This document shows, piece after piece, positions 7,298 to 55,900 of a stretch of DNA of 64,000 nucleotides; the first letter of the stretch is position 1, and every line of letters starts with the position of its first letter. A program made the position numbers and the translations under genes. Source of the stretch: Myxococcales bacterium (GTDB lineage Bacteria; Myxococcota_A; Polyangia; Polyangiales; Polyangiaceae); NCBI GenBank assembly GCA_947473045.1, contig CANJCO010000001.1, positions 124,001-188,000 on the forward strand, read 5' to 3'. The notes below the pieces were generated by a model. It was given only the letters and a program-made list of their open reading frames with translations, made no database searches and was not told the DNA's origin.

Positions 7298-9049
7298 TTG
7301 ATCCTCGTTGATGCCCGTCGCCTCACTGGTCCCAGCCACCTTTCGCGCGCCCCGATCGTAATCGCCGAGGTCACGCTCGAACCGGGCGAGGCGATCGCCG
7401 ACGCGCGCGCGGCGTACGCGGCGGAGCTGTCGCGCATGCGGCTCGCGCTCGGGTTGCCCGGCGGCGTGGCGCTGCTCACCCGGCCGCACGTCGGCGGCGC
7501 GGTGTTTGGCTACGAGGCGCCCGTCGACGTGATGCTCGCGTGCGCCGAGATGAGCGAGTGGGCCGGCATGTCGGCCGCCGAGCGGATGGCAGGGCGTCCG
7601 GCGCTCGATCTGGAGCCGAAGCGCGCCGAGATCGCCCTCATGCTGGACGAGCAGCGCAGCCCGCGACTTGTCGCGCTCGTGGCTGAAGCGGGGGTCCGCG
7701 GCGTGGCTGTTTTGTGGGACGACGAGCTCGTGACCTTCGGCATGGGGCGCGGTTCGGTCACGTTTCCCATCACGCCCCGCGCCGGGCTCCCGGAGGCCCG
7801 CGCGGTGCCGTGGAGTTCGCTCGCGCGCGTGCCGATCGCCCTGATTACAGGCACCAACGGCAAGACGACGACCTCGCGTCTGCTCGCGAAGATCGCAGCC
7901 GCGGCCGGTCTGCGCGCGGGAGTCGCGTCGACGGGCGGCATGATGCTCGCGGGCGAGACCCTCGCCGAGGGCGACTGGACGGGACCGGCTGCGGCGCGCA
8001 CCATTTTGCGTCGCGACGACGTAGACCTCGCGGTGCTCGAGACGGCGCGCGGTGGCATTTTGCGGCGCGGGCTGGCCGTCGACACGTGCGACGTGGCGGT
8101 GATCACCAACGTGCGCGACGACCACCTGGGCCTCTACGGCATCGACGACCTCTCCGCGATGACCGCCGTCAAAGGTCTCGTGGCCCAGGTCGTGCGTCCG
8201 GGCGGAGCGGCGGTGCTGGCGGCGAGCGATGTGCGGCTCGTGGCCCTCGCGCAGACGCTCGCGTGCGAAGTGATCTTCTTCGCCGATCTCGACGCGCCGC
8301 CGGCCGAAGGCGATCCTGCGACGAAGGTGCTCTCGGAGGCGCGCGCGCGCGGCGCCCGGAGCGTGCTCGCCCGTGATGGCGACATCGTCGTTCGCTCAGG
8401 CGAAGCCGAGGCCGTGCTCATGCGCGTCGACGAGGCCCCCATCACCTTCGGCGGCGCAGCCCGCTACAACGTGCAGAACGTCCTCGCCGCGATCGGCGCG
8501 GCGCTGTCGCTGGGGCTCCCCGAGGCGGCGATCGCGGCTGCCGTCCGCGCCTTCAGCCAGCACGACAACCCCGGTCGCGGTCAGCTCTCCGAGCACGGCG
8601 GCGTGCGCGTGCTCCGCGATTTCGGCCACAACGCCGACGGCGTGCGCGCCGTGATGCAGCTCGTTTCAAGGCTTCGCGAGCCGCCTCACCCGCGCGGACG
8701 GCTCACTGTCGTGACCGGAAGTCCGGGCGACCGCACCGACCGCGAGCTCGCTTGCGTGGCTGCGGCGATCTGCGAGGCGGCTCCCGATCGCGTGCTGGTG
8801 CGCGAGCTCGAACACTACCTTCGCGGGCGCTCGCTGGGCGAAGTGCCCGCCGTGCTGCGGCGTGAGCTGCTGGCTTGCGGGCTTGACGCGTCGGCGTTCG
8901 GCGTGACCGCGTCGGAGGTCTCGGCGCTTCGAGAGGCGCTCGCAGACGGCGCGCCAGGCGACTTCGTGGCCGTGCTGGTGCACGTCGAAGAGGACGAAAC
9001 CGCCGCATTTCTGGCCGCCTACGTGCCGCCTGCCCGTCCAGACGCCTGA
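7298..9049 (+). CDS. Mur-ligase family protein resembling the C-terminal domain of cyanophycin synthetase
   Basis: A 583-aa protein whose residues ~180-570 are a Mur-ligase module similar to that of the preceding cphA: TGTNGKTTTSRLL near 185, DWTGPAAARTILRRDDVDLAVLETARGGILRRG, ITNVRDDHLG and ARYNVQNVLAA. The first ~180 residues are not ATP-grasp; I do not recognise them. It therefore cannot carry the Arg/Asp chemistry of the ATP-grasp site alone and may assist CphA, prime synthesis or act on another substrate. TTG start at 7298, with AGGA at 7284-7287, only 16 bp after cphA. The stop codon lies inside the first, degenerate copy of the 22-bp repeat array. Confidence 0.85.
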   Translation: MILVDARRLTGPSHLSRAPIVIAEVTLEPGEAIADARAAYAAELSRMRLALGLPGGVALLTRPHVGGAVFGYEAPVDVMLACAEMSEWAGMSAAERMAGRPALDLEPKRAEIALMLDEQRSPRLVALVAEAGVRGVAVLWDDELVTFGMGRGSVTFPITPRAGLPEARAVPWSSLARVPIALITGTNGKTTTSRLLAKIAAAAGLRAGVASTGGMMLAGETLAEGDWTGPAAARTILRRDDVDLAVLETARGGILRRGLAVDTCDVAVITNVRDDHLGLYGIDDLSAMTAVKGLVAQVVRPGGAAVLAASDVRLVALAQTLACEVIFFADLDAPPAEGDPATKVLSEARARGARSVLARDGDIVVRSGEAEAVLMRVDEAPITFGGAARYNVQNVLAAIGAALSLGLPEAAIAAAVRAFSQHDNPGRGQLSEHGGVRVLRDFGHNADGVRAVMQLVSRLREPPHPRGRLTVVTGSPGDRTDRELACVAAAICEAAPDRVLVRELEHYLRGRSLGEVPAVLRRELLACGLDASAFGVTASEVSALREALADGAPGDFVAVLVHVEEDETAAFLAAYVPPARPDA

Positions 9050-9118
9050 ACACGTATGTTCACACGCCTGAACACGTATGTTCACACGCCTGAACACGTA
9101 TGTTCACACGCCTGAACA
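9035..9118 (+). repeat. 22-bp palindromic tandem repeat array, locus 1 (3 full copies plus 1 degenerate)
   Basis: Three exact copies of TGTTCACACGCCTGAACA start at 9057, 9079 and 9101, exactly 22 bp apart, joined by the 4-bp linker CGTA. Each copy is TGTTCA-N6-TGAACA, an inverted repeat. A fourth, degenerate copy (cgtccagacgcctgaaca) at 9035-9052 forms the last codons and stop of the upstream gene. The same core recurs eight times at 30106-30277. The array ends 80 bp before the likely start of the methyltransferase-NUDIX gene. Because 22 is not a multiple of three, it is not a coding repeat. Confidence 0.97.
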
Positions 9119-9197
9119 CGCTCGCGCGGGCGCCGGCGCGACGATCGGCGGGCGCGCCCCAACAAAACCCGCCGTCGGGGGCCGCATTCGGGGCAAC

Positions 9198-10394
9198 ATG
9201 CCGGCCATGGCAGGCATCGACGGCGCGCTGTGGCGCCTCAAGCAGTTCGTGCTCTTCGACGCAGGCGCGCTCCCGTATGCCGCGCTCACTTCGCAGTCCA
9301 CGTGGCGCGAGCACGGCGCCGGGTTGGCGGAGGCGGCGGGCGTGGCTGCCGGCGACCACGTGCTCGATCTCGGCTGCGGTCCCGGCGAGAGCGCCTTTGG
9401 CATGGCGGAGCGGGTGCCCGGCCTGCGGGTCACCGGAGTCGACTTCAGCCTGGCGATGGTCGCGATCGCGCAGCGGCGTCAGCGCCGAGCGGAGCGCGCG
9501 CAGCACGTCGCCTTTGCCCACGGTGACGCGATGCGCCTCCCGTTCGCCGACGGCACCTTCGACGCCGTCACGGGGCACAGCTTTTTGTACCTCGTGCCCG
9601 ACGCGGCCCGCGTCGCGGCCGAAGTGAAGCGTGTGCTCAAGCCGGGGGGCCGCTGCGTATTCCTCGAGCCCGCGCTCACGAGCGACTCGCGGCTGCTGCC
9701 GCCCGACGTACGCGCGCAGGCGCTGCGTGAGCCCAGGTTCGTGGCGAGCATGGCGCTCTGGCGCATCGTCTCGCGCAGGCGGCCGCGCTTCGACGCGGGC
9801 CGCTTCGCCGCGGTGTTCGCCGGCGCCGGCCTCGAGTTCCGGTCGGCCCGCGAGACGTTGCACGGCCTCGGCGTCATCGGCGTCGGCGCGCGTCCGCCGA
9901 TGCGCTCCCTCGCGGACGTCGACTGGTCCGCGTGGCGCGCGAAAGACCACGCCACGCTGCTCTTCGTCGTGCGCGAGGGGGAAGGCCGCGTGCTGCTCAT
10001 TCGCAAAAAGCGAGGCCTCGGCGCCGGCAAAATCAACGCTCCGGGAGGCCGCATCGAGCCGGGCGAGTCGCCGATGGCCGGCGCGATTCGCGAGTGTCAG
10101 GAGGAGCTGCACATCACGCCCACCGGCGTCACCGACAGCGGCGAGCTGAGCTTCCAGTTCGCCGACGGCTACGCCCTGCACGCGCGTGTATTTCGCGCGT
10201 CGGGCTTCGAGGGAGTGCCCACAGAGACTGACGAGGCCATCCCGATTTGGGCGCCCGCAAGCGATCTCCCATTTTCAGAAATGTGGACCGACGACGCGCT
10301 GTGGATCCCCCACATGCTCGCGCGCCGCCGGTTTTCGGGTCGCTTCGTGTTCGACGGCGACGCCATGCGCGATCACGCGCTGACGATCGGCTGA
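9198..10394 (+). CDS. fusion of SAM-dependent methyltransferase and MTH1-like NUDIX hydrolase
   Basis: Two-domain protein of 398 aa. Residues ~1-240 are a class I methyltransferase: motif I VLDLGCGPGESAFGM near 55, acidic GVDFS, then FDAVTGHSFLYLVPD and LKPGGRCVFLEP. Residues ~255-398 are a NUDIX hydrolase with the full box beginning GGRIEPGESP and continuing to REcQEEL. KINAPGGRIEPGESP and the FxFADGYALHARVF stretch resemble 8-oxo-dGTP diphosphatases of the MTH1/NUDT1 type. ATG 9198 is chosen because the longer in-frame start (ATG 9078) would translate the repeat array; ATG 9207 is also possible. The pairing of these domains is unusual, and the methyl acceptor is unknown. Confidence 0.88.
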   Translation: MPAMAGIDGALWRLKQFVLFDAGALPYAALTSQSTWREHGAGLAEAAGVAAGDHVLDLGCGPGESAFGMAERVPGLRVTGVDFSLAMVAIAQRRQRRAERAQHVAFAHGDAMRLPFADGTFDAVTGHSFLYLVPDAARVAAEVKRVLKPGGRCVFLEPALTSDSRLLPPDVRAQALREPRFVASMALWRIVSRRRPRFDAGRFAAVFAGAGLEFRSARETLHGLGVIGVGARPPMRSLADVDWSAWRAKDHATLLFVVREGEGRVLLIRKKRGLGAGKINAPGGRIEPGESPMAGAIRECQEELHITPTGVTDSGELSFQFADGYALHARVFRASGFEGVPTETDEAIPIWAPASDLPFSEMWTDDALWIPHMLARRRFSGRFVFDGDAMRDHALTIG

Positions 10395-19692: not shown

Positions 19693-22600
19693 ATGCAACC
19701 TCGCACCACGGCTACCCGAATTTTATCGGCAGCTGCGCTCATCGCGCTGCCCGTCTTTGCTGCATGCACCACCCAGACCGAGAGCGTTGAGCAGTCTTCG
19801 GCGGCGCTATTTACCAACGGCGACTTCGAGACCGGCACCACCGGACTGGTTCCTCCGTCGCCCTGGGCGCTGACGACCTACCTCAATCCGGGGGTCACCG
19901 TTCAGACCCCGCAGACGCGCGCGGGACTCAACCTCGGCGCAGGCGGCGTCGCGCTCACCACCACGATCGCGGCTTCGAACGCAGCGCAGGCCGACCTTGG
20001 CAACCTCGCTTCGCTCCGCGTGTGCCGGTACGGCGCCAAATGCGCGCAAATCGACTATCACAGCTCCAACGCGTACGGCGGCGGCGCCAACGCCCAGTCG
20101 GTAAACTCCCTCACGCAGACGATGACCGTCACCAATGGTGACGTCGATCCGAACGACAACATCGTTCACGTGCGCTTCGCCGTGGCCCCGGTGCTCGAAA
20201 ACCCCGCGCACGCGGCAGCCCAGCAGCCCTACTACTTCGTGCAGCTGACCAACGTCACCACGAACACGATCCTCTACACCGACTTCAACCTGAGCGCCCA
20301 GCTCGGCGTTCCGTGGAAGTGCGTCAACTGCGGCACCGCCAACGAGATCGACTACACCGACTGGCAGCTCGTCGACATCGCGCCGGGCAACACGAAAATC
20401 AAGGTGACCGACCAGCTCAAGGTCGAGCTGATCGCGTCGGGCTGCTCGCTCGGGGGTCACTTTGGCGAGCTGTACGTCGACGGCGTGGGCGCCAGCGTGC
20501 CCGGCCTGTTCGTGAGCGGAACCGCGCCGGCCCAGGCGAACGCGGGCAGCAACCTCACCTACAGCTTGACCTACAAGAACGGCGGCCAGAACGCGGCCTC
20601 CAGCGTCGTCACCGACTTCACCACGCCCCCGGGCACCACGTTCCAGTCGCTGGTGGCGCCGAACGGCGCGAACTGCACCGCGCCGGGCGTCGGCACCACG
20701 GGCACCGTGGTGTGCACCTTCGCCGGCAACATCGCGGCGGGCGCCTCGGGCACCTATTCGGTCACCGTACAGATCAACAACAACGCGGTCGGCTCGATCG
20801 TCCAGGGCAACTACGACATCAAGTCGGCTCAGGAATCGGCGCTGCTCGGCTCGCACATCACCACGCTCATCGGCTGCGCGCTCGACGTCGACTGCCTCGC
20901 CGGCAACTGGTGCAACATCAGCCAGAAGGCGTGCACGCCCACGCTGTCGAACGGCGTCGCGGTTCCCTCCGATCTGTCGCACGTCAGCCCCGTCATCAAC
21001 GGCGTCTGCAACGTCAACGCGGGCAAGCTCGTTTGCACGAGCACCGTCTGCGATACGGTCGACAACAAGTGCGGCTTCGCCAACGGTGACGGCCCGTGCA
21101 CGGTGCAAAACGGCGGCACCGTGTGTCGCTCGGGATCGTGCAGCGTCTCCGGGGTGTGCAAGGCCAGCGGAGCCTGCCTCGTCGACGCCGACTGCTCGGG
21201 CAACAACTGGTGCAACATCAGCACCAAGACGTGCACTCCCCAGCTCGCCAACGGCGTCGTGGTGCCCAGCGATCCTGCGCACGTTACGCCGATTCTCAAC
21301 AGCAAGTGCACGCAGCCGGCGGCCACGCTCGTGTGCACCAGCGCGGTGTGCGACACGGTCGACGACAAGTGCGGATACACCAACGGCGTCGGCCCGTGCA
21401 GCAGCCAAAATGGCGGCGTTGTCTGTCGCTCGGCGGTGTGCGATCCCGACCTCAAGTGTGGCTTCGCCAACGGCGACGGACCGTGCACCAACGCGAACGC
21501 GGGCACAGTGTGCCGCTCGGGCGCGTGCAGCGTGAACAGCACTTGCCGACCGCAGAACGGTTGCAACGTCGACGGAGATTGCTCCGCGGGCAACTGGTGC
21601 AACATGGTCACCAACCAGTGCACGCCGCAGCTCGCGAACGGCGTTCTAATCGCGAGCGATCCCGCTCACGTGATGCCCGTGCTCAACGCGAAGTGCACCC
21701 AGGCTGCGGCCACGCTCGTGTGCGTCAGCTCGGTGTGCGACACGGTCGACGACAAGTGCGGCTATGTCGACGGCAGCGGCCCCTGCACCGTGCAGAACGG
21801 CGGAACGGTTTGCCGCTCGGCCGCGTGCAGCCAAAACGGGCTGTGCATGCCGGCGATGGGCTGCAACGTCGACGCCGACTGCGGCATGGGCACCTGGTGC
21901 AACGAGACGATGCACATGTGCATGCCGACGCTCGCCAACGGCGTCGTCGTCCCGACCGACGCACCGCACATGAACCCGGTGCTCAACGCGAAATGCACGC
22001 AGGCAGCGGCGACGCTCGTTTGCACCAGCGCCGTGTGCGACACCGTCGACGACAAGTGCGGCTTCACCAACGGCGTCGGCCCGTGCGACGCGATGAGCGG
22101 CGCCAAGGTGTGCCGCTCGCTCGTGTGCGATCCCGACAAGCTCTGCGGCTTCGCCAACGGCACGGGCCCGTGCACCTCGGCCAACGCCGGCACGGTTTGC
22201 CGCTCCTCGCATTGCGCGAGCGGCGGTCCGAACGTCGGCAAATGCGAGGCGTGTGACACCGACGTCGACTGCTCGGGCGCCACGCCGGCGTGCGATGCCA
22301 AGACGAACGTCTGCGGTCAGTGCTCCGCCACCAACGCCACCGCCTGCACCGGCTCGACCCCGCTCTGTGACACCACGAGCGACAAGTGCGTGCCCTGCGA
22401 CGGCGACGCGAACGACGCAGCCGCCAACCACGCGTGCCCGTCGACCTCGCCGCTCTGCCTCTCCACCGGCGACTGCGGCAAATGCACCAAAAACGCCGAC
22501 TGCGCCAATCACGCGGGCGGCGCGATCTGCGACGTGCCCACGGGCGCGTGCACGCAGAAGTGCACCTCCGACAGCGACTGCGACACTGCGAAGCAGTGGT

Positions 22601-27423: not shown

Positions 27424-28266
27424 CTAGCGCGACTCGGGCAACGGCTGGGCGCCCACGAGCTCGGCGCTTCGCAGGTAAAACGCGCGCGCGAGGTCAGGGG
27501 CAGTGGCCGCGGGGCTCGCCGGGGCGGGCTTTGCGCGAACGAAATACTGACCGCGCACGTTCTTCACCGAAGGGTCGAGCGCCAGAAATACGCTCGTGCG
27601 CGCGCCGTCTGCGAGCGAGTCGTTTCCCTGCATGCCGAAGCCCTCGAGCAGCACCTTGGTCGAGACCACGCCCGGGTGCAGTGCGTTGACGGTGACGCGC
27701 GATTCGGCGCCGAGGCGGCGCGAAAGCTCGACGGTAAACAGCACGTTCGCCTGCTTCGAGCTCGCGTAGGCGCCGTAGCCCGAAAACGGCGCCTTCGAGG
27801 TGTCGAGGTCCGCGAGCGTAATGGCGCCGCGCGTGTGCGCGACCGAGCTGACGTTCACGATCCTCCCTGAATCAGCCTCGCGCAGCGCATCGAGCAGCAG
27901 GTGCGTCAGCAGAAACGGCGCGAGGTGGTTGACCGCGAACGTCGACTCGACGCCGCCATCGGTGCGCGAGAGCGTCTTGCTGAAGATGCCGGCGTTGTTG
28001 ACGAGCACGTCGAGCGGCTCGCCCCGCGCGATGAACGCCGCCGCCATCGCGCGCACCTGCGACAGGCTCGCCAGATCGGCGATCAGCGCCGGCTCGGCGG
28101 GTCGGCCTGTCTCGCGCGCGATCGCAGCTCTGACCGCCTCGGTCTTGCCTTCGCTTCGGCCGTGCACGATGACGCGCGCGCCGCGTCGCGCGAGCTCGAG
28201 GGCAGTCTCCTGGCCGATGCCATCGGTCGCGCCGGTGACGATGATGAGAGGTGCCGCGCCGCTCAT
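27424..28266 (-). CDS. short-chain dehydrogenase/reductase, retinol-dehydrogenase-like
   Basis: A 280-aa NAD(P)-dependent oxidoreductase. The cofactor motif TGATDGIG is near residue 11, NNAG near 95, the catalytic Ser in NVSSVAH, and YASSK carries the Tyr/Lys pair near 170. The following LHPGVVSTK fits the RDH/WWOX-like subgroup. The last ~40 residues are a Pro/Ala extension. Its ATG overlaps the stop of the upstream DUF885 gene (ATGA, 28263-28266), so the pair is translationally coupled. It converges on the thiolase gene with ~36 bp between. Substrate unknown. Confidence 0.88.
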   Translation of the reverse strand: MSGAAPLIIVTGATDGIGQETALELARRGARVIVHGRSEGKTEAVRAAIARETGRPAEPALIADLASLSQVRAMAAAFIARGEPLDVLVNNAGIFSKTLSRTDGGVESTFAVNHLAPFLLTHLLLDALREADSGRIVNVSSVAHTRGAITLADLDTSKAPFSGYGAYASSKQANVLFTVELSRRLGAESRVTVNALHPGVVSTKVLLEGFGMQGNDSLADGARTSVFLALDPSVKNVRGQYFVRAKPAPASPAATAPDLARAFYLRSAELVGAQPLPESR

Positions 28267-29927
28267 GCCATCACCAGCTCTCGCAGCAAGTCGAGGCTCA
28301 CGTTGCCGCAGGCCAGCACCCGGGTGTGAAACTCCTTGAGCGAGCCCCGGCCGGCGGCGAGAAACTCCTCGCGAAGCGCGAGCATGGCGCGCTGGCCGAC
28401 CTTGTACGAAATCGCCTGCGCGGGCCAGCCGAGGTAGCGCGTGATCTCGCTCTCGGCGTGCGCGCGTTCCATGCCGCCGTACGCCTCCATCAGCTCGACG
28501 GCGCGCTCGAAGGTCCACGGTTGCCCCGCGTGCATCGGCGCGTCGGCTGCGATGGGCAGCCCCACGTGCGAGCCGATGTCGATCACCACGCGGCAGGCGC
28601 GCATCATCTGGTTGGCGAGCATTCCGAGCTCGTATTCGGGCTTGTCGTAGTAGCCGAGCTCGCGCATCAGCTGCTCGACGTACAGCGCCCAACCTTCGGC
28701 AAAGCCCGAATAGCAGTAGGCGAGGCGGTGCAGGCGCGACAGGTTCTCCGACAGCCACACTTGCAGGCCGCACTGCAAGTGGTGACCCGGAAAGCCTTCG
28801 TGGTACGCGGTGCTCACTTCGTCCCAGTAGGCGAACGGTCCGTCTCCGCCGAGCGCGTACCAGACTGTGCCCGGGCGCGAAAAGTCTTCGGTAGGCGCCA
28901 CATAGTACGCGCCGAGCGCGCCGCCCGGCGGTGCTGCCTTGACGTCGAGCCTGCGAATCGCGTCGGGAATGTCGAAGTGCGTACCGTCGAGATCGGCGAG
29001 CGCCCGGGCCTGCCGCTCGCTCATCGCCGCGAGGAACGTCTCGCGATCAGGCGCTGCGCGAGAAGCATCGGTGCGCAGCAGCGACATCACCTCGGTGAGC
29101 GACTTGTCGGGATCGATGGCCTTGGCGAGCGCGACCATCTCTGCGCGAATGCGGCGCACTTCGGACCAGCCCCACGCATACGTCTCCTCGGGGTTCGGCG
29201 TCGTGCCGAGGAACTTGCGCATCTCCCGCAAGTAGCGCTCGCGCCCGACGCCGTCGTGCTCCTTCGCGTTCGGCAGGTAGCTGCGTTCGAGCCAGTCGCC
29301 GAGCGCTGCATAGGCCTCGCACGCGCGCGGCGCCGCGGCCGCGATGCGCGCGGTCAGCCCGGCGGTGGCGACGCCCGAGCCTTCGAGTCGCGCGGGCAGT
29401 GCGCGAAAAAACGACGTCTCGCCAGCGTGCGTACGCGCCTGCACAACGGCCGCCCGAACTTGCCGCGCGGCGACGAGGTGTCCCGCCGCGAGCCCTTCGG
29501 CCAGCGTGCTCCTGTAGCCTTCGAGCGCGTCGCCGATCGCCTCGAGGCGCGACGCCACGTTGCCCCAGCCGGCCTCGGTCGAAGTGTCCATCACGTCGAA
29601 CGCCATGCGCACGTTCTGAAACGTCGAGGCGATGTTGTTCAAGTCAGTGTGGTGATCGAAGTGCTCGATCGCGGTGAGCTCGTTGCCGAGCCAGTCGAGG
29701 GTCACCTTCGCCGCGAGGTCGGCCCACGGATCGCTCTGCTTCGGCAGGCTCTGCACGCGCTGCTGCCATTGTCGCAGCATGGCCTCAGCCTTCGCCACGC
29801 CCGCGGGGGAGAAATCGTCCCACAGGTGGTCGTGCCCGGGCACGCCCATGTTGGTCGCCTGAACCGGCCGCAGGGCCGCGAGGGCATCGACGAGATCAGC
29901 GCTGAGAGAAAAAGGCGTCGGCGTCAT
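28263..29927 (-). CDS. DUF885 family protein, putative zinc peptidase
   Basis: A 554-aa protein of the DUF885 family. The signature YHEGFPGHH near residue 375 supplies an HExxxH-type metal site, and SGFAEGWALYVEQLM ~35 residues later supplies a downstream Glu, as in M32-like gluzincins. No signal peptide is visible: the N terminus MTPTPFSLSADLVDAL looks cytoplasmic. The family is often called a carboxypeptidase-like or dipeptidyl protein, but activity is mostly untested. It is coupled to the SDR by an ATGA overlap. The upstream region contains ~178 bp of plain sequence and then the eight-copy 22-bp array, the most obvious candidate for its regulation. Confidence 0.85.
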   Translation of the reverse strand: MTPTPFSLSADLVDALAALRPVQATNMGVPGHDHLWDDFSPAGVAKAEAMLRQWQQRVQSLPKQSDPWADLAAKVTLDWLGNELTAIEHFDHHTDLNNIASTFQNVRMAFDVMDTSTEAGWGNVASRLEAIGDALEGYRSTLAEGLAAGHLVAARQVRAAVVQARTHAGETSFFRALPARLEGSGVATAGLTARIAAAAPRACEAYAALGDWLERSYLPNAKEHDGVGRERYLREMRKFLGTTPNPEETYAWGWSEVRRIRAEMVALAKAIDPDKSLTEVMSLLRTDASRAAPDRETFLAAMSERQARALADLDGTHFDIPDAIRRLDVKAAPPGGALGAYYVAPTEDFSRPGTVWYALGGDGPFAYWDEVSTAYHEGFPGHHLQCGLQVWLSENLSRLHRLAYCYSGFAEGWALYVEQLMRELGYYDKPEYELGMLANQMMRACRVVIDIGSHVGLPIAADAPMHAGQPWTFERAVELMEAYGGMERAHAESEITRYLGWPAQAISYKVGQRAMLALREEFLAAGRGSLKEFHTRVLACGNVSLDLLRELVMA

Positions 29928-30105: not shown

Positions 30106-30277
30106 TGTTCACACGCCTGAACACGGGTGTTCACACGCCTGAACATGGGTGTTCACACGCCTGAACATGGGTGTTCACACGCCTGAACACGGGTGTTCAC
30201 ACGCCTGAACATGGGTGTTCACACGCCTGAACACGGGTGTTCACACGCCTGAACACGGGTGTTCACACGCCTGAACA
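30106..30277 (+). repeat. 22-bp palindromic tandem repeat array, locus 2 (8 copies)
   Basis: Eight exact copies of TGTTCACACGCCTGAACA start at 30106, 30128, 30150, 30172, 30194, 30216, 30238 and 30260, with strict 22-bp periodicity. The 4-bp linkers are CGGG, TGGG, TGGG, CGGG, TGGG, CGGG, CGGG, so only one linker base varies. With the CGGG linker a second, overlapping palindrome appears (TGAACAC-GG-GTGTTCA). The core is identical to locus 1 at 9035-9118. The array lies between the DUF885 start and the end of the small lipoprotein gene, both on the minus strand. Confidence 0.98.
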
Positions 30278-30290
30278 CGGCCCGCGTCGC

Positions 30291-30665
30291 TCAGTCACCG
30301 GCGGCGGCGTCGGCCGGGGCGCTTTGCCCGCCGTCGGGAAGACAGATGTCGGAGCGTGACAGCGCCGCTTTTACGGCGGCGCAGCGCGGATCGCGCTCGG
30401 ACGTGTCGAGGCTCGTGGGCGCCGGGCCGCAAGTGGTGGCGCCGTAGGCCGTGGCCGCGCCGCCATCGGTCAACGACGCCTGCACGAGGCATCGCGGGGC
30501 GCAGCCGAGGCCCGGATCGGCGCCCGCGATGACATCGACCGCCGCCACGTCGCCGAGGCAGCCGCGCGCGTCGTCGAAGGCCCGCGCCCGGTAGAGGTAG
30601 GCGCCAGTGTCGTTGCACGCGAGCGCGACGGCCGCGACGCCCGCGACCGCCGCGGCGCGCGTCAC
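30291..30665 (-). CDS. small lipoprotein coupled to aspS
   Basis: A 124-aa predicted lipoprotein: MTRAAAVAGVAAVALAC gives a short signal peptide with lipobox ALAC and then NDTGAYLYRARAFDDARGC. Further Cys (CAPRC, TTCG, RCAAV, DICLPDG) suggest disulfides outside the cytoplasm. The C terminus is Ala/Asp-rich. It is chosen because the GTG at 30663-30665 overlaps the aspS stop (GTGA), indicating translational coupling, and because it alone yields a proper lipobox. It ends 13 bp from the repeat array. No family is recognised. Confidence 0.7.
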   Translation of the reverse strand: MTRAAAVAGVAAVALACNDTGAYLYRARAFDDARGCLGDVAAVDVIAGADPGLGCAPRCLVQASLTDGGAATAYGATTCGPAPTSLDTSERDPRCAAVKAALSRSDICLPDGGQSAPADAAAGD

Positions 30666-32545
30666 GATTGAGGCTCGACCGTGCGGATCTTCAGCTCTGC
30701 GAGCTGCTCGGGCGACACCCTGTTGGGCGCGTCGGTCATGAGATCGGTGCCCTTCTGCGTCTTGGGGTAGGGGATGACGTCGCGGAGGCTCTCGGCGCCC
30801 GACAGCAGCATCGCGAGGCGATCCATGCCGACGGCGATTCCGCCGTGCGGAGGCGCGCCGAAACGCAGCGCGTCGAGCAGAAAGCCGAACTTCGCGCGGG
30901 CCTCTTCGTCCTCGATGCCGAGCGCGCGAAATACGCGGGCCTGCACTGCCGGATCGTGGAGGCGAATCGATCCGCCGCCGATCTCGAAGCCGTTGAGCAC
31001 CAGATCGTAGCGGTGGCAGAGCACCTTGCCGGGATCGGTCTCGAGCATGTCGACGCAGGCGTCGTGCGGCCGTGTAAACGCGTGGTGGGCGGCGGCCCAG
31101 GTTTTTTTGTCGTCGTCGTACTCGAACAGCGGCGGGTTCACGACCCACAGGAACTCGAACTTGCCGCCGTGTCCGCTCGCGGGGATGAGCCCGAGCTTCT
31201 TGCCGAGGTGCACGCGCAGGTTCGCCATCACCGTCTGCACGGTGCTCTCCTTGCCGAACTGGAAGAAGAGCAAATCGCCCTCTTCCGCGCCGGTTTGCGC
31301 GTTGATGGCCGTGCGCAGCGCGGGGGTGATCGTCTTGCCCAGCGGCGACTGCGCCCAGTTGCCGTCGGCGTCGATCTTCGCGCGTGCGAGCCCTTTGGAC
31401 CCCATGCCTTTGACGAAGTCCTCGAGCTTGTCGAGCTCGGCGCGCGAGAGCTTGGCCGCGAGGCCCGCGGGGATGCGCATCGCCTTGACGATCTCGGCGG
31501 GCAGATCGCGACGGTAGCGGCCGGAGGTGAACTGATCGGCCACCTCTTTCCAGAACGGGATCGCGCCGCCTTCGTGGTCGATCACGAGGCCGGTGATGTC
31601 GGTGTGCGGCAGCCCGAAGCGAAGGTCGGGCTTGTCGTTGCCGTAGTGCCCCATCGAGTCTTCGAAGGGCATCTCGGGGAAGCGGCCGCTCGGATACTGC
31701 TCGCGCAGGTCGATGCCGAGCACTTCTTTCCAGATGCCGAAGACGAGCCCCTCCATCGTTCGAAAGATGTCGTCCTGCGAGACGAAGCTCATCTCGACGT
31801 CGATCTGCGTGAACTCAGGCTGGCGATCGAGGCGAAGGTCCTCGTCGCGGAAGCATTTCACGATCTGAAAATAGCGGTCGAATCCGGCGACCATGTACAG
31901 CTGCTTGAACAGCTGCGGGCTCTCGGCGAGCGCGAAAAATTTCCCCTGGTGCATGCGGCTCGGCACGAGGAAGTTCCGCGCGCCGCCCGGGGTGTATTTC
32001 ACCATGACCGGCGTCTCGAGCTCCAAAAAGCCGAGGCCGTCGAAGTACCGGCGCACGACCTGGTTGATGCGGTGACGCACGCGCAGGGTGCGCTGCAGCG
32101 GCGCGCGGCGAAGGTCGAGGAAGCGGTACTGAAGTCGCTTTTCTTCGGACGTTTCGATCGCGTCCTGGATCTCGAACGGCGGGGTGTCGGCCTTGTTGAA
32201 GACCGTCAGCTCGACGACGTGAACTTCGATTTCGCCGGTGTCGAGCCGGGGGTTGTTGTTGGTGCCGCGCGAGACGACGAAGCCCCGCACGCCGATGACC
32301 CACTCGCCGCGGAGCGCCTGAGCGCTGCGGTACGCGGCCGCGGGCGCGTCGCCGTGGCCCTTGAGGTCGGGATCGAACACGAGCTGCGTGATGCCTTCGC
32401 GGTCGCGGAGATCGACGAAGACGCAGCCGCCGTGGTCGCGGTAGCTGCCGACCCAGCCGAACAGGACGACCTCCTGGCCGGCGTCGGCCGCGCGAAGGGC
32501 GCAGCAGTGGTGGGTGCGTTTGAGCTCATCGATGAAGCGGGCCAC
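30662..32545 (-). CDS. aspS: aspartyl-tRNA synthetase
   Basis: Class II synthetase charging tRNA-Asp, 627 aa. The N-terminal OB-fold anticodon-binding domain reads VVLFGWVGSYRDHGGCVFVDLRDREG. Motif 2 is in YFQIVKCFRDEDLRLDRQPEFTQID, and the bacterial-type GAD insertion follows. Motif 3 is GIAVGMDRLAMLLSG near the C terminus, with RDVIPYPKTQKG. The start is GTG (cac at 32543-32545), preceded by GAGGAG; upstream frame is Arg/Ala low complexity. It is slightly longer than the ~590 aa of E. coli AspRS. Whether it also charges tRNA-Asn cannot be judged here. A small lipoprotein gene overlaps its stop. Confidence 0.96.
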   Translation of the reverse strand: MARFIDELKRTHHCCALRAADAGQEVVLFGWVGSYRDHGGCVFVDLRDREGITQLVFDPDLKGHGDAPAAAYRSAQALRGEWVIGVRGFVVSRGTNNNPRLDTGEIEVHVVELTVFNKADTPPFEIQDAIETSEEKRLQYRFLDLRRAPLQRTLRVRHRINQVVRRYFDGLGFLELETPVMVKYTPGGARNFLVPSRMHQGKFFALAESPQLFKQLYMVAGFDRYFQIVKCFRDEDLRLDRQPEFTQIDVEMSFVSQDDIFRTMEGLVFGIWKEVLGIDLREQYPSGRFPEMPFEDSMGHYGNDKPDLRFGLPHTDITGLVIDHEGGAIPFWKEVADQFTSGRYRRDLPAEIVKAMRIPAGLAAKLSRAELDKLEDFVKGMGSKGLARAKIDADGNWAQSPLGKTITPALRTAINAQTGAEEGDLLFFQFGKESTVQTVMANLRVHLGKKLGLIPASGHGGKFEFLWVVNPPLFEYDDDKKTWAAAHHAFTRPHDACVDMLETDPGKVLCHRYDLVLNGFEIGGGSIRLHDPAVQARVFRALGIEDEEARAKFGFLLDALRFGAPPHGGIAVGMDRLAMLLSGAESLRDVIPYPKTQKGTDLMTDAPNRVSPEQLAELKIRTVEPQS

Positions 32546-32661
32546 GGCGTTCTCCTCGTAAATACCAGGGCCGCGACCATAGCCCGAAACGCCGACTGGA
32601 CAAAAAGGCGGCAGCCCGCGGAACTTGCCCCGGGCCGGCGCCGTCGTGTAGGCGCGATCCG

Positions 32662-34425
32662 GTGGAAAAACCGGCAACCAGCGGGGCGCGAGCCCGGCCC
32701 TCGGCGAGGGTCTGGGCAACGGCGCTGGCAGCGCTGGTGCCCGCGGGCGTGGCTGCGACGCACTTGCCGATCGTCGCGGACGCCGCGCACGACACGGCGA
32801 CGGTGCGGGTGCTGGGGCTCGCCCCGGCCGGCGTGCTGCGGGCGCTCGACGCGGTGGTCGCCGCGGCGATCGTGCCCATACCGATGGGAACGCGGGCGTG
32901 GCGGGCCAGCTTCGCCTCGACGCTTTGCCTCGCGCTCGCGGCGGCTTTGATGTTCTCGGTCGCCGAGCGAAGGTCGCGACTCGGTGCCACGGCTGCGCGC
33001 GCCCCGGGCGTGTTCGCCGCGCTCGTCGTCGCGTGCTTCGGAGCGCTCGCGCCCGCGCTGCAGCTCGAGGCGACCTCTCCCGGGGGCGCCACGCTCGGCC
33101 TGCTGCTTGCCTTGCTGCCCCGCGCCCTCGCGATGCGCGGCGCTTCGCTCGCGCGCGTGGCGCTGTGCCTCGGGCTCGCGTTCGCCTACGAGCCGCTCGT
33201 TGGGCTCCTTGCGCTCGCTGCGTCGGGCGCCGCCCTGCATGCGCGTCGGGCGACGTTGCCGCGCTCATTCGCAGGGCTTGTCCCGCTCGCAGCCGCATTT
33301 TTAGCTGGATTCGCGCCCCTGCTCGGCGCCCTCGCCCTCACGCATCCGGCGCGGGGAGCCGTGTTCGTCGACGTGCTCGGGGAGCACTGGGGCCCCTCGC
33401 ACGCGCCGCTTGCGTTCGCGGTCGAGCAGCTCGGCGTCGTCGGGCTCGGGCTCGCGATCGGCGGGCTCGGCGTCGCGCTGGCGAGCCCTGCGCTGCGGAC
33501 GGCCGGGGCGTCGTCGCTGGTCGTCGTCGCGATCTGCGCCGCGGCTATTTTCAAGGGGTCTGCGCTCGGACCGGACCGCTACGGTGCCCCCGCGCTCATG
33601 GCGGTGACCGAGTGCGCGCTGCTGGTCGCGACTGCGATCGGGTCGGCGGTCGCGTTCGTGCGCGAGACGAAGGTGGCCTATGCGCAGGCGAGCGGCTCGC
33701 TGCTCATGCTCATGCTCGCGGCGATGCCGGCGCGTCAGGCCGACGACGCGCTCGTGCGCTTCGCCACGAAACAGGGCGCTCCTGAGCGCGCGTTCGCGGC
33801 GCTTGCGTGGGAGCACCTGCCGCTGGGCGCGCTCGTGCTCGTGGCCGGCGATGAGCTCGCGCTGCGGGTCGCCTCGGCGCGCGCGCAAGGCGACGTTCGG
33901 GGCGATGTTCTGTTCGTCACGATGCGCGACAGGGCCGTGCTCTCGCTGCTCGCGCGGGAGCCCCGGCTTGCTCCGTTGCTGCGCGATCAGTCGCTCTACG
34001 GGGCGCCGGAGGAGTGGTCGCTCTCCGCGCTCGCGGCGGCGCGTCCGCTGGCGCTTTCGTTCGACGCTGCGTGGCCGCGTCCGCTCTCACGCCATCTGGT
34101 GCCTGCGGGAATTTTCGATCGGTTTTATGCCGAACCGCGAGGTCTCTCCGACCGCGGGGCCGCGCTGGACGCCCAGCACGACGACCGCGCAGCGCTCGTC
34201 CGTGCGCTCACCCGCGCCGCCGCTCCGGAGGTCGCGCGGGCAGTGGCGGCTGGCTATCGCGCACGGCTGATCGGCGCCGCAGCCTCGGGCGACCGCGACA
34301 TCGCGGGCCGCGTGCTCGAAGACCTCCGCCACGTGGCTCCCGCCGATCCGGTGGCCTTCGACGTCGCGCGCAGGCTCGTGGGCGTGCGCGGGGCGATCGA
34401 CGTCTCAGACCTCAAAGGGCGCTGA
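32662..34425 (+). CDS. multi-pass membrane protein of unknown function
   Basis: A 587-aa protein with roughly eight to ten hydrophobic segments in residues ~15-370 (for example VWATALAALVPAGVAATHL and ALCLGLAFAYEPLVGLLAL) and a soluble C-terminal ~200 residues with Arg-rich helices. The layout resembles DUF2723-type or other GT-C-like membrane proteins, but the catalytic acidic motif of that fold is not evident to me. GTG start at 32662. It is divergent from aspS with ~116 bp between. No neighbour gives a functional clue. Confidence 0.65.
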   Translation: MEKPATSGARARPSARVWATALAALVPAGVAATHLPIVADAAHDTATVRVLGLAPAGVLRALDAVVAAAIVPIPMGTRAWRASFASTLCLALAAALMFSVAERRSRLGATAARAPGVFAALVVACFGALAPALQLEATSPGGATLGLLLALLPRALAMRGASLARVALCLGLAFAYEPLVGLLALAASGAALHARRATLPRSFAGLVPLAAAFLAGFAPLLGALALTHPARGAVFVDVLGEHWGPSHAPLAFAVEQLGVVGLGLAIGGLGVALASPALRTAGASSLVVVAICAAAIFKGSALGPDRYGAPALMAVTECALLVATAIGSAVAFVRETKVAYAQASGSLLMLMLAAMPARQADDALVRFATKQGAPERAFAALAWEHLPLGALVLVAGDELALRVASARAQGDVRGDVLFVTMRDRAVLSLLAREPRLAPLLRDQSLYGAPEEWSLSALAAARPLALSFDAAWPRPLSRHLVPAGIFDRFYAEPRGLSDRGAALDAQHDDRAALVRALTRAAAPEVARAVAAGYRARLIGAAASGDRDIAGRVLEDLRHVAPADPVAFDVARRLVGVRGAIDVSDLKGR

Positions 34426-52957: not shown

Positions 52958-55900
52958 TCAGGCCGCGCGCTTGCGCCGGCGGGTCACGACCCACAGGGCG
53001 AACGCGATGCTCATCGACGAGCCGGAGACGCCTCCGCCGCTCGTGGAGCACGCGCCCACGTTCGTCTCGGGCACGGGATCCGGCTCGACCGGTCCTGCGT
53101 CGTCGCCCGCGGCCGCGTCGGGCTTGCCGGCGTCGGGCTTGCCGGAGTCGGCGCCGGCGTCGGCACCCGCGTCGGGGGGCGGCGCGCCGCAGCTGCCGCC
53201 AGTGCATACGCCGCCGTCAGTGCCGCAGGTCGTGCCGTCGGCAACGGGGGGATTGACGGGGCACGGAGCCGTGTTGCCGTCGCACAGCGCGTTGTCGTCG
53301 CAGTCGGCCTTCGAAGGGTTGCACACCGTGCCCGCGGGCAGCAGCTTCTTGACCGGGCAGGCGATGGTTGTTCCATCGCAGAGCGCGTCGAGCTCGCAGC
53401 CACCCGACGAAGCGTTGCACATCGTACCGAGCGCAACCGGTGCCTTCGCGGGGCACACTCCCGACGTTCCGTCGCACTTCGCGTCGCTCTCGCACGCTGC
53501 GCTCGACTGGGCGCAGACCGTGCCTGCTGCGGTGACGACCTTTGACGGGCACGCGGCGACCTTGCCGTCGCACTTTGCGTCAGCCTCGCACGTTCCGCTC
53601 GCGGCGTTGCAGACAGTGCCCTGCGCGACGAGCGCCTTCGCGGGGCAGGCAACGGTGACCCCGTCGCATTTCGCGTCGCTTTCGCAGATCCCTGACGAAG
53701 GGTTGCAGACGGTGCCTTGCGCGACGAGCGCCTTCGCGGGGCAGGCAACGGTGACTCCGTCGCATTTCGCGTCGCTCTCGCAGATTCCTGACGAAGGGTT
53801 GCAGACAGTGCCTTGCGCGACTTTGGCCTTTGCGGGGCAAGTCACGGTGACTCCGTCGCACTTCGCGTCGCTCTCGCAGATGCCTGACGAAGCGTTGCAG
53901 ACGGTGCCTTGCGCGACTTTGGCTTTTGCGGGGCAAGTCACGGTGACTCCGTCGCATTTCGCGTCGCTCTCGCAGACGCCGGACGAGGCGTTGCAGACGG
54001 TGCCCTGCGCGACGAGCGCTTTTGCGGGGCATGCGGGGTTGACGCCGTCGCATTTCGCGTCGCTCTCGCAGATGCCGGACGAAGCGTTGCAGACGGTGCC
54101 CTGCGCGACCTTGGGTGTGGCGGGGCAGACATTGGTCGAGCCATCGCAGGTGGCGTTGTTCTCGCAGATGCCGGACGAGGCCTTGCAAATGGTGCCCTGC
54201 GCCTTGACCGGGTTGGTGGGGCAGGCGCCGGAGTTGCCGGTGCACTTCGCGTCGTTTTCGCACGCTGTGCCCGACGCCTTGCACGTCACCGTGGCCGCGA
54301 TGAAGCCGCAGGTGCCGTTTTGGGCTCCGCCCGCTGCCACGCTGCAGGCTTGGCAGTCGGTGGCCACGCCGCCGCCGCACGCGGTGTTGCAGCAGAAGCC
54401 GTCGGCGCAAAACCCGCTGGAGCAGTCGCTCGCTTTGGTGCAGACCGAGCCGATTTGCGCAAAATCGTACAGCGCGCAGCTCGTAAGCACTTTGCCCGGC
54501 GCTCCGCCTCCGGTGACAAGCACCTTGTTCGATGTGAGCGAATTGGCCGTCGGATTTACACGAATGCCGCCCGGAACGGCCCCTCCGTTCGACCAGGTGT
54601 CGGTGGCCGGATCGTAGATGTCAGCGTTGTTGGTGCCCGCGTTGGTGAGGCTGTTCACGCCGCCGACCACGAGGGCCAGACCGCCCGACATGGTGACCAT
54701 CGCGGCGCTGTCGCGCGGCGCGGTCATGGGTCCGGTGGTGAGCTTCCAGCTGTTGTTGGCCCGGTCGTAGACCTCCGACGCGCCATAGTTGGCGTTGGTG
54801 TCGGAGAGGCCGCCGGCCACGAGCAGCTTGTTGTTGAGCAGCAGCGAGGCCGTGTGACTCGAGTGGGCGCGCAGCGCGGAGGCGCCCGCCGACCAGGAGT
54901 TGTTGTTTGCGTTGTAGATGTCGACGGTGCTGACGTTGTTCGACGCGAGATCGGTGCCGCCGACGGCCACCAGCTCGCCCGTGGCGACGATGTTGATGGT
55001 GTGGGTCGATCGTGCGAGGGAGAGCGAGCCGGCCGCGGACCACGTCCCCGCGGCTGGATCGAAGATTTCGGCGCTCGCGATGGGATTGAACGCTCCGTCG
55101 AGGCCTCCAGCCGCCACCACTTTCCCGCTCTGAAGGACTTCTGCAGCGTGCAGCACGCGCGCGGCTGCCATTGAACCGGTGAAGGTCCACTTTCCGGAGC
55201 CTGAGTCCCATACTTCGGCGTGATTGAAGACGTTGTTGCCGTCGTATCCGCCGACGAGCAGCAGCTGCGTGGTCGACAGGCCCTTCACGACGTGAAGCGT
55301 TGCCGCCGCGACCCCCTCTTTGAGCGATCCTGTGGCAGCCCAGGTGTTCGTGTTGGGGTTGTAGACTTCGACCGACGACAGTCCGACGTTGTTGAAGTCG
55401 AGGCCGCCAACGGCGAGGGCTGTGCCGTCGACGTAGACGGCGGTCGACTGGTAGGTGCGCCCCGTGGCCATGCTGCCCGCGGTCGTCCAGCTCGGGTCGA
55501 GCAGCGCGGGGTAGGCGAGCGCGCCGCGCTGCCATGAAACGCGCACGGTGCAAGTGCGTGCGCCCGGCGAAACCGGCGCGTGGTTCCACGGAGGCGCCGC
55601 GTTTGTATCGACTGCGCAGTCGGCCACGGCGAGCGTTGCGGGCGTGCGCCGGCCGTCGCTGCCGACAACGTAGGGCGGCGCGACGTGCAGGCGCGGAGCC
55701 CCGTTGGCGTCGACGAACTCGAGCGTGTTGGCCACGAGGCGCAGCCCCGCTACGCCCGCGCTGAGCTGCACGGAGTAGCGAACTTCGCCGGTGTCGCTGC
55801 CAGCGGAAAGCGTGACGAAATCTTCAGAGCCGTCGGGACGCGGTCGGTGCACGACGTCGCCGCCCTGCCATGCGCCGCGGTAGACGACGTAGCCTTCGGA

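Follow-up and report, generated by a model that had tools for sequence, protein, structure and literature searches.

The window analysed here, a stretch of 64,000 nucleotides from the genome of a Myxococcales bacterium (G000), contains a tandem palindrome array at positions 30106–30277 (+ strand), in which eight identical 18-bp cores, TGTTCACACGCCTGAACA, start at 30106, 30128 and so on to 30260 with a period of 22 bp. The linkers between them read CGGG or TGGG, and both the eight exact copies at 22-bp spacing and the confinement of change to a C/T difference in the 4-bp linker are as described in the original prediction. TGA occurs within the array in every reading frame of both strands. On one side it is flanked by a small lipoprotein-like ORF (30291–30665, − strand; no family match, start uncertain, lipobox-like N-terminus read by eye), which follows an upstream ORF containing the aspartate–tRNA ligase gene aspS (30662–33298, − strand; NF001750, E 4.5e-229). 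On the other side lie a DUF885 gene (28263–29927, − strand; PF05960, E 2.6e-134), co-directional with the small ORF, and, downstream of it, an SDR-family oxidoreductase gene (27424–28236, − strand). The array had been placed upstream of a DUF885-SDR operon, which is literally true, as the DUF885 start codon at 29927 is 178 nt away, but misleading, because only 13 nt separate the array from the stop codon of the preceding small ORF (30291–30293).

The original prediction missed a second array built on the same core, at 9035–9118 (+ strand), where four units, the first of them degenerate (9035–9052), are joined by the linker CGTA. The upstream gene, which has a Mur-ligase domain (7298–9049, + strand), ends with its stop codon inside this first unit, and the listed start of the downstream methyltransferase-domain ORF (9078–10394, + strand) also falls inside the array, the true start being probably near 9200. 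Palindromes of the form TGTTCA-N6-TGAACA with up to two mismatches occur 15 times in the window against 0.64 expected from dinucleotide shuffling, and none of 100 shuffles reached 15. The window also holds long tandem repeats at 53384–54202 and 20882–21433, with periods of 96 bp and 300 bp, which are divisible by three and look like those of repeat-protein genes.

The arrays belong to a family dispersed through the genome. Genome-wide searches combined with inspection of the assembly (5.15 Mb in 138 contigs, estimated to be 99.98% complete) revealed at least 16 arrays comprising 76 units, at least 14 of the arrays lying outside the window, each with three to eight units and unique flanks. The arrays are far beyond chance, and the core is not a common random k-mer. 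In addition, there are two solitary core copies that are apparently intergenic (C45, C14). The core also matches twice within long ORFs (C4, C67); these two matches encode similar peptides and are probably a coincidence. Within an 864-kb sample of the genome, the two arrays of the window are the only tandem arrays with about three or more copies and a period of 12–40 that is not a multiple of three. Four of the 16 arrays, including both in the window, lie within 48 kb of one another on contig C1 (106.5–154.3 kb), for which about 0.8 arrays would be expected.

The unit in all arrays is TGTTCA-CACGCC-TGAACA, and it is exact in 49 of the 76. Edge units diverge more, and some come nearer to the perfect palindrome (C)GTTCAGACGTCTGAAC(G); on contig C47 an array even displays a gradient from CGTTCAGACGTCTGAACA to the canonical unit. 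Core and linker behave very differently: arrays differ from one another by 0.05 per base in the core and by 0.51 in the linker, while the linker difference within an array is only 0.10 per base (permutation p 5e-4). Because the linkers are nearly uniform inside arrays and different between them, while the cores stay constant, the linker is not the part that is conserved or that spreads. Its freedom is nonetheless limited, since the majority linker conforms to Y-S-B-R in all 16 arrays, so that the outer linker bases extend the palindrome as Y/R. A target-site duplication is rejected, since the sequences on the two sides of the arrays do not both agree with the 4-bp linker. To judge from this pattern, each array seems to have expanded independently from a constrained core, which lends support to the original suggestion of amplification as a unit. 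We envisage that seeding placed an 18-bp palindrome of constrained sequence behind many genes, and that each core, together with its own 4-bp linker, may then have multiplied locally head to tail by slippage or unequal recombination. The family would combine one constrained core, linkers that differ by locus as a record of separate expansions, and a placement linked to stop codons.

The arrays might instead be selfish or neutral repeats without present function, relics of a lost mobilising enzyme that have been kept in harmless gaps behind genes. The very patchy distribution, the minisatellite-like decay of the outer units, and the lack of a Y1/RAYT transposase in a genome of such completeness all agree with this. 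However, conservation of the core extends to its individual letters, the linkers have diverged tenfold more, and the majority linker of every array has the Y-S-B-R form. We consider this explanation unlikely.

The positions of the arrays relative to genes were derived from ORFs, codon-position GC, and family matches. A stop codon lies within 22 nt in 12 of the 16 arrays, compared with 9.7% for random intergenic placement (p ~1e-9), and several arrays have stop codons on both sides, at distances of 4/6, 13/13, and 7/8 nt. Among the 15 arrays for which both neighbours are known, seven lie in convergent gaps, seven in tandem gaps, and a single one (L055) in a divergent gap, whereas random placement in the intergenic gaps of a genome sample gives 17% convergent, 45% tandem, and 38% divergent. 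Convergent gaps are thus enriched (p 0.008) and divergent gaps depleted (p 0.009); the gene calls come from a simple script, which makes all of these p-values approximate, but the effect is large nonetheless. In tandem gaps, the arrays sit close to the upstream stop codon and not to the downstream start codon. By our own count, the orientation of the CACGCC strand relative to the nearest gene end follows only a weak, non-significant tendency.

This distribution bears directly on the original proposal that the array is an operator for a regulator of the DUF885-SDR operon. Although the palindromic arms, the 22-bp spacing, and the location 178 nt before the start of DUF885 would all suit an operator, at least 16 arrays are found beside unrelated genes (DUF885, ftsH, acyl-CoA ligase, ribonucleotide reductase, and others), and nearly all of them are behind genes. 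Arrays lying mainly between convergent genes had been named in advance as speaking against the proposal, and this is largely what is seen, with the tandem arrays placed behind the upstream gene. An operator function at this locus is accordingly very improbable.

We regard the arrays as REP/BIME-like dispersed extragenic palindromes, forming a genome-specific family, that serve as two-way gene-end elements, a reading to which we give an even chance. In transcripts arriving from either side, the stop codon would be followed within a few nucleotides by clustered hairpins or a single long rod, structures that would favour transcript termination or shield the 3' end, as reported for REP/BIME. We take this to be the likeliest working mode. 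The predicted RNA folding energies of the arrays range from −27 to −109 kcal/mol, with values of −79.5 kcal/mol (+ strand) and −109.1 kcal/mol (− strand) for the array at 30106–30277; the GGCGTG strand folds better than the CACGCC strand because its centres can pair mutually through G-U pairs. The hairpin-RNA role that had originally been suggested may still apply. A single hairpin is weak, however (about −4 kcal/mol predicted), and a role as hairpin alone would not need the invariant centre CACGCC. These last two points also count against the gene-end reading, as do the one divergent array and the scarcity of U tracts of the kind that intrinsic terminators possess: the longest T run within 40 nt behind the arrays is 1–5, mostly 1–3. 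Moreover, a selfish repeat surviving where it is least harmful would likewise sit behind genes. A search of seven array-bearing loci against Rfam at the gathering score yielded nothing but a tRNA at one of them (L047), 4.4 kb away from its array, and the array at 30106–30277 gave only sub-threshold chance matches. With TGA in three frames of each strand and hairpins in the transcripts from both sides, the arrays lend themselves to a direct test of a gene-end function.

The family is species-restricted. The tandem pattern was found in none of 144 other relatives, including one genome of the same genus (in 880 small pieces), and a pattern scan across GTDB yielded other palindromes and no relative of the array core. 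Searches for a phage or plasmid origin of the arrays gave no match. Among the palindromes in other bacteria, eight loci carry TGTTCA-N6-TGAACA-type palindromes with a 22-bp period 13–64 bp upstream of a related protein of about 400 residues in Bacteroidales, Fibrobacter, Nitrospirales, and Verrucomicrobiaceae (at one locus, L083, the palindrome overlaps the ORF start as listed). Both members of this protein family that were tested proved to be AAA_14 + DUF4143 ATPases, and the palindromes look like a cross-phylum operator of that family. In Amycolatopsis, three loci have two-copy GTTCAGC-GCTGAAC palindromes with a 22-bp period just behind a stop codon, which look like doubled terminators.

The perfect 16-mer GTTCAGACGTCTGAAC is, however, repeated in two genomes from other families of the order, against a chance expectation of about 0.002 per genome: it occurs five times in G095, and in G131 seven times exactly and once with one change. 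The eight near-identical copies in G131 are solitary, and several lie just behind genes or in convergent gaps. G095 has palindrome arrays with a spacing of 19 or 22 bp and with symmetric changes in the arms (GTTCAG, GTACAG, GTCCAC, GTCCCG), and these arrays are located about 20–130 bp 5' of four paralogues of an uncharacterised family of about 220 residues, which looks autoregulated, with diverging operator specificity. Homologues of this family are present in G131 (E 1e-19) and G000 (E 2e-18). Six viral matches to the 16-mer may be due to chance.

These observations raise the possibility that a dedicated dimeric protein, whether nucleoid-organising, Noc-like, or a global regulator, binds the palindrome, the arrays then being clusters of its binding sites in gene-end gaps. 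The letter-by-letter conservation of the core across arrays exceeds what a hairpin requires, the 16-mer recurs in G095 and G131, the G095 arrays precede the four paralogues that have homologues in G131 and G000, and one G131 palindrome lies a few nucleotides behind a gene with a ParB-type HTH. Yet the homologues in G000 and G131 have no palindrome beside them, another genome with a homologue (G001) has only one palindrome, which is chance-like, and no convincing gene family, but only a few generic matches, is shared by the neighbourhoods of the palindromes in the three genomes G000, G095, and G131. The site is also not parS. The G095 palindromes and the homologues in the other two genomes keep DNA binding alive as an explanation without establishing it, and we consider it a minor but serious possibility. 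A more specific version, in which a putative trans-acting factor, sporadic in the order, recognises GTTCA-N6-TGAAC in operator arrays before a regulator family in G095 and in gene-end arrays in G000, is speculative and rather improbable. If correct, it would amount to a chromosome-wide system of gene-end insulation or organisation independent of a REP transposase.

Several other identities do not fit. The arms TGTTC...GAACA and the letters CACG recall chromosomal parS (TGTTCCACGTGGAACA), but the arrays have two extra central bases, tandem organisation, and gene-end positions. The units do not agree with the parS/Noc site TGTTNCACGTGNAACA, and the single canonical parS of G000, TGTTTCACGTGAAACA, near a bioF-like ORF, and its single HTH_ParB gene are both away from the arrays. 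In G131 as in G000, a canonical parS lies within or close to a bioF-like ORF; that of G000 is on contig C1, at 71 kb. The LexA box is GAAC-N4-GTTC, and the array core has an N6 spacing. As for sequencing artefacts, the window unit has only 6 nt in common with the TruSeq adapter; the G095 palindrome shares 13 nt with it, but the G095 arrays hold many other variants and lie beside different genes.

The exact array sequences were not found in the literature, and two further kinds of element are among their closest counterparts. Hairpin clusters that follow stop codons and mostly lack a U tract have been reported as terminators (PMC8355165). The arrays resemble these in having hairpins a few nucleotides apart, within 80 nt of the stop codon and without a U tract, but those clusters have no single conserved repeat, whereas here the same sequence is found at all places. 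The second kind, and the one to which we compare the arrays, is REP/BIME. Published REPs in convergent gaps lie less than 20 bp from both 3' ends, and those in unidirectional gaps lie near the upstream 3' end (PMC3733652). The arrays, too, follow 3' ends at short distance, mostly in convergent or unidirectional gaps and rarely in divergent ones. They also consist of short, imperfect, extragenic palindromes in many copies, although the 76 units in 16 intergenic arrays fall below the copy number of REPs, which is usually above 100 (PMC2817692). In both cases, the elements are restricted to a species and form clusters with non-homologous spacers at each locus (PMC3733652, PMC2817692). The arrays differ in their 18-bp unit, their exact 22-bp spacing, and their roughly 80 units instead of hundreds, and also in that CACGCC keeps one orientation throughout each array, unlike the alternating BIMEs. 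They lack a GTAG or CGTC end tag, opening and closing with a whole core arm (except one that is cut by a contig end), with CGYC inside the core; a CGTC-REP with the linker as hairpin loop does not fit these edges. Mobilisation by RAYT, the transposase cognate to GTAG-type REPs, is likewise rejected, as G000 has no match to PF01797 (Y1 transposase), which is matched in 5 of 14 control genomes. Position, dispersal, locus-specific spacers, and species restriction thus agree with REP/BIME, while tag, orientation, and transposase do not, so that the arrays would be REP/BIME-like in their working rather than members of a described REP family, and would be a clear natural example of extragenic palindromes spreading and multiplying with no REP transposase involved.
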